DNA of 45,951 bases from contig ONFO01000025.1 in NCBI GenBank assembly GCA_900317155.1, positions 1 to 45,951 of the forward strand. The letters are read 5' to 3'. The stretch comes from an uncultured Bacteroidales bacterium. Its GTDB lineage: Bacteria; Bacteroidota; Bacteroidia; Bacteroidales; F082. The position numbers and the translations under genes are program-made. Shown here one piece after another: positions 26,293 through 34,947 of this stretch (positions are counted from its first letter, which is position 1; every line of letters begins with the position of its first letter). A model generated the notes under the pieces. That model saw only the letters and a program-made list of their open reading frames with translations. It did no database searches and was not told the DNA's origin.

Positions 26293-26360
26293 GGCCTCAG
26301 AAAGCATGTCATTCCCGCGCTGGGCAGTGGGAAGGCAAGGAATCTATGCTTTCTGAGGCC
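26293..26360. repeat. Hairpin element with 14-bp stem GGCCTCAGAAAGCA
   Basis: GGCCTCAGAAAGCA at 26293-26306 is perfectly complementary to 26347-26360. Inside are TGTCATTCC and GGAATCTA, the core shared with the array at 32.6-34.1 kb. The core orientation is opposite to the CAGAAAGC elements of that array. Confidence 0.85.
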
Positions 26361-26389: not shown

Positions 26390-26468
26390 GCCTCCCATAG
26401 ATTGACTACGTCGAATGCAGAGCATTTCCTGCCAACGCACATACCCTTGCAGGAATGACATGGGAGGC
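26390..26468. repeat. Hairpin element with stem GCCTCCCAT, inverted core, carrying an insertion
   Basis: GCCTCCCAT at 26390-26398 pairs with 26460-26468. The core reads AGATT...AGGAATGAC, reversed relative to the six 55-bp copies at 32.6-34.1 kb. After AGATT it contains GACTACGTCGAAT, the same insertion seen at 33873-33886. Confidence 0.8.
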
Positions 26469-32146: not shown

Positions 32147-32599
32147 ATGATACTTGTAAAACAAGCAGGGGTCTACGTCAACATCTTGAATTGCAGGCTC
32201 AAGAAGTACCTGGCAGAGGTGTTCAAGAAGAACGGGGTAAACCTGACGGCGGAGCAGTACCTCGTCATGGACACGTTGTGGAATGAGGGCACGCTCACCC
32301 AGCAGGCCATCGCCTTCATCATCCAGAAGGACAAGAACTCGGTGACGCAGTTCATCGACAACTTGGAGAAGAAGGGCTTGGTTGCCCGCTCGGTGGCCAA
32401 GGACGACCGCCGCGTGAACAACATCGTGGTCACTGCCGAGGGCATGGCGCTTAAGGACTCCACCAAGCAACTGGCCATCGACACGATGAACAAGGCATTG
32501 GAGGGCATCCCTGAGGAGGATCTGCAGACGTTTGTCACCGTGTTGAAGAAGGTCTGCGGCAACATCAGCGACTTCGGGAAGCAGACGGAGCCTTGGTAA
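32147..32599 (+). CDS. MarR-family transcriptional regulator
   Basis: A 150-aa winged-helix protein. VYVNILNCRLKKYLAEVFKK and LTAEQYLVMDTLWNEGTLTQ lead into the recognition region IAFIIQKDKNSVTQFIDNLE and the wing KKGLVARSVAKDDRRVNNIV. The last helices form the usual dimer interface. It binds DNA as a dimer and commonly responds to small aromatic or lipid-like compounds; no ligand can be read. It has its own promoter; the nearest downstream gene lies beyond about 500 bp of repeats, so no target is obvious. Confidence 0.92.
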   Translation: MILVKQAGVYVNILNCRLKKYLAEVFKKNGVNLTAEQYLVMDTLWNEGTLTQQAIAFIIQKDKNSVTQFIDNLEKKGLVARSVAKDDRRVNNIVVTAEGMALKDSTKQLAIDTMNKALEGIPEEDLQTFVTVLKKVCGNISDFGKQTEPW

Positions 32600-32612: not shown

Positions 32613-33145
32613 TGTCATTCCTGCAGAAGCCTGTAACAACCTGAAGAACACGTCAAATCAGCCTCCCATGTCATTCCAGCTGGGGCAAGTGGGTGAGCGG
32701 GAATCTATGGGAGGCGGAGCAAAGAAGAAAAAACCATAAATGACGTCCCCAACAGCTATAGATCCCATGCCTTTGCCCACCAACCCCCGCGGGGATGACA
32801 TAGCTGTAGGAGCCTGTTTCTGCCCATCGTTGGAATGACATGCTTTCTGCTGCCTGTTTCAACCTGAAGAACACGTCAAAACCAGCCTCCCATGTCATTC
32901 CAGCGTGGGCAAGTGCGTTGGCGGGAATCTATGGGAGGCGGGCCAAAGAAGATAACAACCATGAATGACGGCATCAGAAAGCATAGATTCCAAGCCCTCG
33001 CGCAATCCAACGCAGGAATGACATGCTTTCTGCTGCCTGTTTCAGCCTTAAGAACACGTCAAACCAGCCTTCCATGTCATTCCAGCGGGGACAAGTGGGT
33101 TGGAGGGAATCTATGGGAGGCGGCACAAAGAAGAAAAAATAAAAG
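32613..33145. repeat. Hairpin-repeat array, left block (five elements)
   Basis: Type A elements (stem GCCTCCCAT/ATGGGAGGC, 55 bp, core TGTCATTCC...GGGAATCTA) at 32661-32715, 32885-32939 and 33067-33121 (the last with one G-T stem change). Type B (stem CAGAAAGCAT, 58 bp, reversed core) at 32975-33032. Type C (stem ACAGCTAT, reversed core) at 32752-32807. Half copies lie at 32613 and 32831. Conserved linkers are CCTGAAGAACACGTCAAA before A and CAAAGAAGATAACAACCATG after A. No protein is supported here; short open frames across the block are repeat translations. Confidence 0.9.
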
Positions 33146-33154
33146 ATTCAACAA

Positions 33155-33436
33155 ATGAAAACCTATTGGGTATATATGATGCAAAGTGCCAATGGCAAAG
33201 CCTTATACACGGGAGTCACCAATGACCTTGATAGGCGTGTTAGAGAGCACAAGGATGGTAGTGGATCTGCATTTACGGCAAAATACAAATGCCATAAATT
33301 GGTATACTATGAAGATTTTGGTCTGATAGATCAGGCGATAGTAAGGGAGAAAGAAATCAAAATGCTATCAAGAGCGGAAAAAGAAAGACTGATAGATACT
33401 ATCAACCCTGAAAGGAAGGATTTGTTCGAGGTGTAG
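33155..33436 (+). CDS. Single-domain GIY-YIG nuclease (UPF0213/YhbQ-like)
   Basis: A 93-aa protein covering just the GIY-YIG domain: TYWVYMMQSANGKALYTGVT has WVY and YTG in place of GIY and YIG, followed by NDLDRRVREHK with the catalytic arginine, then EDFGLIDQAIVREKEIKMLS with the metal-binding glutamate, and INPERKDLFEV at the end. All key residues of the small family are present and the length is normal. Members cut DNA in vitro in some cases, with unclear cellular roles. The gene is surrounded on both sides by hairpin repeats; its ATG is 34 bp after element A3. Confidence 0.9.
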   Translation: MKTYWVYMMQSANGKALYTGVTNDLDRRVREHKDGSGSAFTAKYKCHKLVYYEDFGLIDQAIVREKEIKMLSRAEKERLIDTINPERKDLFEV

Positions 33437-33446
33437 GTAATCAGTC

Positions 33447-34135
33447 ATCCTTCCATGTCATTCCTGCAGAGGCCTGTAACAACCTGAAGAACACGTCAAA
33501 CCAGCCTCCCATGTCATTCCAGCGGGGGTATGTGCGTTGGCGGGAATCTATGGGAGGCGGGCCAAAGAAGATAACAACCATGAATGACGGCATCAGAAAG
33601 CATAGATTCCAAGCCCTCGCGCAATCCAGCGCAGGAATGACATGCTTTCTGCTGCCTGTTTCAACGAGCCTTCGTTGGGATGACATAGCTGTTGGAGCCT
33701 GTTTCTGCCCAGTGTTGGAATGACATGCTTTCTGCTGTCTGTCTCAACCTGAAGAACACGTCAAAATCAGCCTCCCATGTCATTCCAGCGGGGGCAAGTG
33801 GGTGAGCGGGAATCTATGGGAGGCGGTTCAAAGAAGATAAAGACCATGATTGACGGCATCAGAAAGCATAGATTGACTACGTCGAATCTTCGATTTCCAT
33901 GCCTTCGCGCAATCCAGCGCAGGAATGACATGCTTTCTGCTGCCTGTTTCAACGAGCCTTCGTTGGGATGACATAGCTGTTGGGGCCTTTTTCTGCCAGC
34001 GCAGGAATGACATGCTTTCTGTTGCCTGTCTCAACTTGAAGAACACGTCAAACCAGCCTCCCATGTCATTCCTGCGGGGGTATGTGCGTAGGCGGGAATC
34101 TATGGGAGGCGGTTCAAAGAAGGAAACAACCCCTT
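33447..34135. repeat. Hairpin-repeat array, right block (five elements)
   Basis: Type A elements at 33504-33558, 33770-33824 and 34056-34110; type B at 33594-33651 and 33860-33939 (80 bp because of a 22-bp insertion). Half elements GGGATGACATAGCTGT lie at 33677-33692 and 33966-33981, and TGACATGCTTTCTG at 33721 and 34008. The linker CTGAAGAACACGTCAAA precedes each A copy. Spacing between A copies is 266 and 286 bp, so units are close to but not exactly tandem. Confidence 0.9.
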
Positions 34136-34201: not shown

Positions 34202-34215
34202 CAGCTCAAATTTTG

Positions 34216-34947
34216 ATGAATATGAATAAGACAATCAAATTATTATGGGCGCTCTTTGCGACGGCTTTGCTGTTGACGGCGTGCAACAAAGGCCCAGGCG
34301 AAGGCGGCACAGGCACGGTGCGAGGCTATGTGAAGCTGGTGCACCATCCCGACGACGACTACACCTTGACTCCCGACACCATGGCGGCGGCCAAGACCGA
34401 CGTGTTCATCGTCTATGGCGACGAGCCTTATTTCGGCAACGACGTGGAAACGAATGCCGAAGGGATGTATCAGTTCGAATACCTGTTGCCTGGCAACTAT
34501 ACCGTGTTTTCCTATTCCACCTTGCCTTCAGGCGAGAAGGTTGCTGTGAGCGAGACGGTCAATCTGACGCGAGGAGCGGTAGCACAAGCGCCTACGCTTT
34601 ACATCCACGATGGCAAGGCATACGGCACATCCGTCGTGAAAGGGCAGGTAATGGCGGCCTATTATGTCAAGGACGATGGCGTTTGGTACTATCATTCGGA
34701 AGGCCCGGCTTATGAGCACCGGGTATATATCCGCAAGGCAGGCGAGGAGCTGTATTTCGATGACACCCGCACTGGCGTGGATGGCAAATTCGCATTCCAG
34801 AAGTTGCAGCCCGGTGAGTATGAGATTTTCACCGTGACCGAAGACGGCGATGAGTGTCCGTCGCTGCTGTTCCAAAGTGTCAGCGTGGGAGAAGCGGGAC
34901 AGATTTACGAACTTGAAGAACCTTTTGTAATCAGAATAAACTTATAA
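34216..34947 (+). CDS. Lipoprotein with repeated beta-sandwich (carboxypeptidase-like) domains
   Basis: A 243-aa lipoprotein: signal and lipobox LLWALFATALLLTACN, a glycine-rich stretch, then two beta domains ending in similar strands, NAEGMYQFEYLLPGNYTVF and VDGKFAFQKLQPGEYEIFTV. These are characteristic of carboxypeptidase-regulatory-like (transthyretin-fold) domains. Either ATG at 34216 or 34222 may be used. It precedes a secreted protein by 10 bp, so both are cotranscribed, probably with the polyphosphate genes. The specific role is unknown. Confidence 0.75.
   Translation: MNMNKTIKLLWALFATALLLTACNKGPGEGGTGTVRGYVKLVHHPDDDYTLTPDTMAAAKTDVFIVYGDEPYFGNDVETNAEGMYQFEYLLPGNYTVFSYSTLPSGEKVAVSETVNLTRGAVAQAPTLYIHDGKAYGTSVVKGQVMAAYYVKDDGVWYYHSEGPAYEHRVYIRKAGEELYFDDTRTGVDGKFAFQKLQPGEYEIFTVTEDGDECPSLLFQSVSVGEAGQIYELEEPFVIRINL

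Follow-up and report, generated by a model that had tools for sequence, protein, structure and literature searches.

A 45,951-nt stretch of DNA from an uncultured Bacteroidales bacterium (positions 1 to 45,951 of contig ONFO01000025.1; hereafter the window) contains a long array of hairpin repeats resembling repetitive extragenic palindromes (REPs), and within that array lies a single small gene:

33155..33436, + strand: 93-aa stand-alone GIY-YIG nuclease gene (PF01541, E 1.5e-15)

The array probably arose by amplification of a small selfish element consisting of a stand-alone GIY-YIG gene and its cognate palindromes, in other words a nuclease-only ‘REPtron’. In loci compared across bacteria, a single nuclease family is specifically and widely paired with a single REP superfamily. 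On sequence grounds the GIY-YIG nuclease is a strong candidate for the role of spreading REPs of the CGTC type, for which the enzyme has been missing. A preliminary description of this DNA had treated the association of gene and repeats as a local curiosity; the pairing is general and widespread in bacteria.

A GTCAT-type REP is present within 250 bp of the gene at 154 of 190 GIY-YIG loci, and on both sides at 120, the GTCAT motif and the A/T stem opening being built into the search rule for flanking repeats. The loci fall into two sets. The first comprises the window's own genome, genomes of the same family and 18 plasmid-collection records; it includes 60 further places in the genus, taken in list order, and its plasmid records were chosen for variety from 44. 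Here 79 of 110 loci are flanked, 61 of them on both sides. The second, cross-phylum set holds the best 80 of at least 575 confirmed relatives, of which 75 are flanked (59 on both sides). Flanked loci occur in 28 of 30 phylum-level names, with names found for 70 of the 80 cross-phylum loci. The five unflanked loci of this set are L205, L212, L216, L232 and L240, and L216 starts 44 bases from a contig end. Near-copy loci (e.g. L154–L156) were kept uncollapsed, hence the rows are not all independent. Repeat types of their own are found beside the gene in records of Rhizobium CIAT894, Neorhizobium, Shinella, Azospirillum, Aeromonas, Planktothrix and Spirosoma; the flanking rule failed at the Rhizobium K1/93, Legionella, Pseudomonas, Acetoanaerobium and Subdoligranulum loci. 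Several records filed in the plasmid collection are of chromosome size (NZ_CP119142.1 and others, e.g. 2.17 Mb for N. gonorrhoeae). On Planktothrix agardhii plasmid p1 (L092), the GIY-YIG/REP cassette has a type IIL restriction-modification gene on one side and the DISARM gene drmA on the other.

Cold-shock genes and Y1 transposases served as control gene families. None of 30 cold-shock genes is REP-flanked, compared with 29 of 35 GIY-YIG loci from the family's other genera, and seven scrambled tags matched between 0 and 4 of 80 loci. Within non-coding DNA, repeat density near the gene is 12.4-fold that found more than 600 bp away in the cross-phylum set and 8.8-fold at 103 first-set loci; seven of the 110 first-set loci were left out of this count, and of the protein tree described below, because the frame rule gave no clean protein. 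At the gene that forms the upstream border of the window's array, any GTCAT-type repeat was seen at 5 loci in 29 relatives. These figures bear on a passive reading, in which REPs are merely common between genes, or act as terminators, so that any small isolated gene would look flanked. REPs are indeed intergenic and hairpin-forming. However, the enrichment persists when only non-coding DNA is counted, cold-shock genes are not flanked, and terminators would not explain the matched stem types or the +/− orientation of the flanking repeats; the passive reading is thus very improbable.

Another possibility is that the repeats are mobilized by RAYT or another IS200-like Y1 transposase and that the GIY-YIG gene is a bystander. 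Y1-transposase genes are present in all 20 genomes tested, yet of the loci inspected (one per genome, 20 of 79 matches listed) none is flanked within 250 bp, and a wider window yielded a single weak GTCAT-type match, 353 bp away, at 1 of the 20, against 154 of the 190 GIY-YIG loci. Di Nocera et al. (2013; PMC3733652) likewise found none of the RAYT or IS200 genes to be flanked by CGTC units. RAYT was rejected as the mover of the repeats since the 20 Y1 loci inspected are not REP-flanked within 250 bp, and involvement of any such transposase is extremely improbable. The enrichment of the GIY-YIG gene beside repeats, proposed as a check in the preliminary description, is therefore evident and lies far above that of cold-shock or Y1-transposase genes.

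The flanking repeats have a preferred geometry and are matched to one another. The order REP(+), gene, REP(−) is seen at 76 of the 120 two-sided loci (p 9e-19 versus one quarter). The same 5-nt stem occurs on both flanks at 47 of 61 loci in the first set and 40 of 59 in the cross-phylum set, where shuffling gave mean agreements of 11.1 and 9.9, respectively, with maxima of 22. On a quick tree of 181 proteins, 146 of them with a stem-type label and two of the 80 cross-phylum rows being too short for inclusion, stem type follows the protein phylogeny, changing 58 times where shuffled labels need 92 changes on average and 82 at the least. The 73 cross-phylum rows alone give 36 changes, and shuffling gives 46.9 on average and 40 at the least. 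Two gene types each associate with a repeat type of their own, with some confounding by descent. Paralogs within single genomes are found beside differing repeats. In the window's own genome, L001 and L004 have other palindromic or direct repeats on both sides. In genome G100, L037 and L109 are located beside ATTCC repeats and L152 beside ATTGC repeats, with none by rule at L157; in G106, L032, L108 and L111 are beside ATTCC, and L149 and L162 beside ATTGC.

Close orthologs of the window gene (78–100 % identity) occur in 17 of 99 genomes of the genus. All 17 carry at least nine repeats of the window's type, compared with at least five in 10 of the 82 others (Fisher p 1.5e-12), and the medians are 20 and 0, respectively. 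Co-occurrence p-values given here are uncorrected for phylogeny, and the identity cuts of 78 % and 66 % and the repeat thresholds of 5 and 16 were set after the lists had been viewed. Repeats equally abundant in genomes without the gene, the outcome that the preliminary description had named as contradicting a nuclease-driven element, are not what these counts show. Across 21 ortholog loci, a GTCAT-type REP lies within 250 bp at 20 and on both sides at 17. Locus L042 fails the strict REP rule, though an imperfect GTCATACC palindrome is present there. A second clade of the gene (at least 66 % identity to the L119 protein) is found in 17 genomes, in one of them by a partial match. Flanks of the second-clade loci examined carry ATTGC-type repeats, and at least 16 such repeats are present in 17 of 17 second-clade genomes versus 17 of 82 others. 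In a joint regression over the 99 genomes, the window-type gene is a significant predictor of repeats of its own type (p<2e-4), unlike the second gene (p 0.35); for the second repeat, the second gene is a significant predictor (p<2e-4).

The array is bordered in the window by two genes:

32147..32599, + strand: MarR-like gene, left border of the insertion, close to the downstream gene in relatives without the array (presumably MarR, a label read from the sequence)
34213..34947, + strand: open reading frame of the right border gene

The upstream border gene is matched in 71 of the 99 genus genomes, and the site was read in the best 30 loci including the window's own, i.e. in 29 of the 70 relatives with an upstream-gene match. 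Both border genes, with no GIY-YIG match, are present in all 28 relatives that show both; the 29th locus ends at a contig edge. The border genes are 42–255 bp apart in 27 of the gene-less sites and 533 bp apart in L304, where another stretch lies between them. Eleven of the 28 relatives carry a close ortholog elsewhere in the genome, and by nucleotide comparison the orthologs of the genus occupy about ten contexts, some common to two or three genomes. Likewise, Azospirillum lipoferum has a cassette between sufB and sufC, where none is present in A. oryzae, A. ramasamyi or strain B510, and in Sphingobium the site is filled in TomTYG46, is empty in TomTYG72 and is covered over the whole query by six other records. 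Gene and repeats have been gained or lost at syntenic sites; the empty sites whose existence the preliminary description had left to be checked are present at the window's site in relatives, in Azospirillum and in Sphingobium.

Some further sites are less simple. In TomTYG64, and in mutated form in TomTYG74, a gene-less site holds one palindrome that is tagged at both ends, like the fused outer halves of the flanking REPs (loci L311 and L313; AP027328.1, 94032–94058). Double-tagged palindromes are rare, with 2 loci against 24 single-tag loci on the four plasmids searched, and this one is either a deletion footprint or an unfilled target. Sinorhizobium M103 was considered as an empty site and rejected, as it is filled too, with fewer repeats around the gene. 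The gene is present in both Sinorhizobium L094 and L314, with extra REP pairs in one of them, which reads as a second instance of an array growing locally around the gene. For the Rhizobium CIAT894 site, only border pieces were found besides the site itself among 15 of 57 records listed.

The state of these sites is informative with respect to the main rival explanation, in which the gene is a homing passenger, a free-standing homing endonuclease that lands in or cuts REPs while something else spreads them. The GIY-YIG fold is a classic one among homing enzymes, and 6 of 8 relatives scanned, though not the window protein, show matches below the cut-off to group I intron endonucleases. The double-tagged palindrome of TomTYG64 could be an uncut target, and the gene-less window site of L294 (genome G127) holds a single window-type REP between the border genes, at position 1451. 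However, 27 of the 28 gene-less relatives have no window-type repeat in the stretch between the border genes, thus insertion seems not to need a resident REP, and the double-tagged palindrome is equally well explained as a deletion footprint. Additionally, repeat type tracks gene type per genome and both flanks match, which suggests that gene and REPs spread together. A homing passenger is accordingly considered unlikely.

By its domain content and conserved catalytic residues, the 93-aa protein is recognizable as a member of the GIY-YIG nuclease superfamily. PF01541 is its sole Pfam domain (57.6 bits versus a cut-off of 22.6), and an NCBIfam profile search of the protein gave no match. Residues Y7, Y18, R28, E65 and N84 are invariant across 39 chosen aligned relatives, and the catalytic roles of two Tyr, Arg, Glu and Asn are known from I-TevI and UvrC. 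The predicted structure (predicted local distance difference test, pLDDT, 95.1) has the UPF0213 structure 1zg2 as its first Foldseek match (E 4.4e-5, the only match below 0.001), and ranks 2 to 9 are Slx1 structures, all weak (E 0.013 to 0.11). Slx1 acts on branched DNA, and the similarity is thus compatible with, though no proof of, processing of hairpins or cruciforms. According to PMC1564403, Slx1 is without the C-terminal Asn; N84 would correspond to this residue and seems to set the present family apart from Slx1. In-frame stops occur in some copies of the nuclease gene (L263; G064:C17:51635-51922; G157:C5; G026:C178), as would be expected for decaying selfish genes.

The resemblance to Slx1 raises the possibility of a domesticated resolvase, a structure-specific nuclease in the service of the host, which would trim REP hairpins or cruciforms and be kept near REPs as its workplace. 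Slx1 is among the top structural matches, if weakly, and REP-rich genomes could need such an enzyme. Against this, the window-type gene is patchy (17 of 99 genomes of one genus), its orthologs are found in about ten contexts, some genomes have paralogs beside different REP types, and some gene copies carry stops. Patchy presence, varied contexts, paralogs and stops together look like selfish DNA, which makes a domesticated resolvase decidedly improbable.

The repeats themselves can be compared with described REPs, which Di Nocera et al. (2013; PMC3733652) divide into two superfamilies, GTAG and CGTC. CGTC REPs have a CGTC tag, replaced in many by TGTC or CCTC, a stem opened by A–T pairs and a short tail, and head-to-head pairs predominate among them. 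Four families are described, with stems of 8–9 bp and loops of 4–5 nt. The superfamily takes in the Rickettsia palindromic elements (RPEs) RPE-4 and RPE-6 and Neisseria dRS3, with which the Neisseria CGTC-1 REPs are equated. By the same account, CGTC REPs seem to be without a dedicated transposase, and such an enzyme may have died out or been replaced; no associated enzyme gene is reported for them there, unlike the repeats described here. Hosts of CGTC REPs in that paper, namely A. lipoferum, S. meliloti and Neisseria, also yield GIY-YIG genes beside palindromes in the present survey.

Window elements resemble CGTC REPs in their GTC tag, A–T stem opening and tail, and head-to-head pairs occur among them; the tag is TGTC, and the A/T pairs open the stem as ATTCC/GGAAT. 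Across the repeats of the 190 loci, the base preceding GTCAT is T in 328, C in 112, A in 13 and G in 5. The core of the window elements is approximately 38–41 nt; its stem is interrupted and the outer stem measures up to 10 bp, a build that departs from the 8–9 bp stem and 4–5 nt loop. The TGTC tag and AT-opened stem, in elements longer and more interrupted than those of the four described families, point to a divergent CGTC REP variant. The window repeats are thus, as judged by their build, TGTC-tagged relatives of the CGTC REP superfamily, whether as members or as a long variant. Alphaproteobacterial and Neisseria elements beside GIY-YIG genes look compact. In an N. gonorrhoeae record, a GIY-YIG homologue is flanked by elements that look dRS3-like, and the link to Neisseria dRS3 drawn in the preliminary description is upheld in this respect.

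The commonest unit would be REP(+), GIY-YIG gene, REP(−), of approximately 400 bp, the two REPs being placed like terminal inverted repeats, and dispersed single REPs and head-to-head pairs would be its gene-less derivatives. The nuclease may recognize the tag and hairpin, probably while these are extruded or single-stranded at a replication fork, and may nick or cut at the tag/hairpin. Host repair or template switching could then copy the REPs, and sometimes the gene, to new sites or reiterate them locally, with the window's array arising from local reiteration through the same cut-and-repair process. The putative enzyme would be the CGTC counterpart of RAYT for GTAG REPs, but a hydrolytic, joining-free nuclease.

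Several points weigh against such an element. GIY-YIG nucleases are not known to have a strand-joining chemistry. No GTCAT-type REP was found within 250 bp at 36 of the 190 loci; of the 31 unflanked first-set loci, 26 were inspected and 10 have palindromes of related build in both flanks, and no recognisable palindromes are present in the flanks of L102, L103, L105 and L106. The 10 of 82 genus genomes without a close gene that carry at least five window-type repeats are a further difficulty, the clearest being G095, which is 98 % complete and carries 38. G095 and the nine others give the impression of having kept the REPs after losing the enzyme, and the repeats listed for G074, one of the ten, belong nearly all to another loop type. 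The close orthologs L042 and L045 are located beside other stem types. In the joint regression the window-type gene also predicts the second repeat, more weakly (p 0.0014), a correlation indicating that shared ancestry inflates the co-occurrence. Lastly, no target duplication was found and the insertion ends could not be placed to the base; in Azospirillum and Sphingobium the intergenic DNA is too diverged to fix the ends.

Of the known systems, the RAYT–GTAG REPtron has a similar layout. In both, a small enzyme gene lies between cognate REPs, and gene-less REPs and pairs are dispersed; the tag is GTAG there and TGTC in the window, and the enzyme is a Y1 HUH transposase there and an unrelated GIY-YIG nuclease here. 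RAYT, a tyrosine transposase of the Y1 type, acts on REP DNA in its single-stranded form. REPINs and miniature inverted-repeat transposable elements (MITEs) likewise include head-to-head REP pairs as non-autonomous derivatives, and the putative helper enzyme in the present case would be the GIY-YIG nuclease. Free-standing GIY-YIG homing endonucleases of the I-TevI group share the catalytic core and a selfish life style, but the window gene is located in an intergenic array and is flanked by its own palindromes. At 93 aa, with PF01541 only and an intergenic setting, it shows neither the extra domains, such as NUMOD, nor the intron of intron or intein homing endonucleases, though no dedicated intron search was run. 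Slx1, bacterial Slx1-like and UPF0213 stand-alone proteins have the same minimal GIY-YIG fold; the window family differs from Slx1 in keeping the invariant N84 and in being REP-flanked. Among the papers listed in open-access PubMed Central (PMC), none links GIY-YIG to REPs, preprints and most subscription journals being outside this scope. A term search of three papers that each cite PMC3733652 (PMC12306157, PMC6006769 and PMC5896051) gave no GIY match.

If the proposed element is real, it would answer the question of which enzyme serves CGTC REPs, as RAYT serves GTAG REPs, and provide an origin for dRS3-like repeats. It would also account for many small GIY-YIG genes whose only annotation is nuclease family protein, and offer a route by which a nuclease without joining chemistry multiplies repeats. 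The chances appear about even that a bacteria-wide class of transposase-free elements, each an approximately 95-residue GIY-YIG nuclease between two inverted REPs, seeded the CGTC REPs, including Neisseria dRS3 and probably the Rickettsia RPEs, through hairpin cutting and host repair copying. The approximately 400-bp nuclease/REP element would perhaps be among the smallest autonomous elements known. The loci also provide a large natural set of matched enzyme/hairpin pairs for work on specificity.

The 1.5-kb array at 32613–34135 of the window consists of nine intact hairpin cores, one interrupted core and seven half elements, and the full elements are split five and five around the 93-aa open reading frame. 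This agrees with the ten full hairpins and half elements, five per side of the gene, counted in the preliminary description, except that one of the ten is interrupted. The isolated copies that it placed near 26293 and 26390 correspond to an intact and an interrupted element, respectively. The full elements of the array are:

32670..32707, + strand: REP-like hairpin element, ATTCC type
32759..32799, − strand: REP-like hairpin element, ATCCC variant
32894..32931, + strand: REP-like hairpin element, ATTCC type
32984..33022, − strand: REP-like hairpin element, ATTCC type
33076..33113, + strand: REP-like hairpin element, nearest full one upstream of the gene
33513..33550, + strand: REP-like hairpin element, first intact one downstream of the gene
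33603..33641, − strand: REP-like hairpin element, ATTCC type
33779..33816, + strand: REP-like hairpin element, ATTCC type
33868..33932, − strand: REP-like element, one arm interrupted by approximately 22 bp
34065..34102, + strand: REP-like hairpin element, last of the array

The half elements, and the isolated pair outside the array, are:

32613..32640, + strand: half element (tag and first arm only), left edge of the array
32832..32842, − strand: half element
33456..33484, + strand: half element immediately downstream of the gene
33677..33687, − strand: half element, ATCCC variant
33717..33727, − strand: half element
33965..33975, − strand: half element, ATCCC variant
34004..34014, − strand: half element
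26308..26346, + strand: isolated intact element, partner of an interrupted one
26390..26462 (approximate), − strand: isolated element, interrupted at the same place as 33868–33932

The ATCCC variant of the ATTCC type is thus seen in three places, the intact core at 32759 (one of nine) and the half elements at 33677 and 33965. DNA folding of seven of the nine intact array elements gave, for five, an outer stem of 10 bp, an inner ATTCC/GGAAT stem and a small unpaired bulge at the tag; the element at 33076 folds with a different inner pairing, and the outer stem of the ATCCC variant is 7 bp. The literal core given in the preliminary description, with a one-base gap, has no matches, because the real gap is approximately 21–25 bases. 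The pattern GTCATTCC-N6..30-GGAATCTATG has 26 matches in the 3.8-Mb genome, 8 of them inside the 1.5-kb array, and the reversed control pattern has none. Of the 17 genome copies outside the window, most are single; three pairs are head-to-head and one is tail-to-tail.

The interruption of approximately 22 bp occurs twice in the window at the same point of the arm (33868–33932 and 26390–26462). The copy in 33868–33932 contains a TCGAATCTTCGA palindrome, and a similar stretch is found in another genome, in the upstream flank of L045. It is possible that this interruption is itself a nested repeat that targets the hairpin arm.

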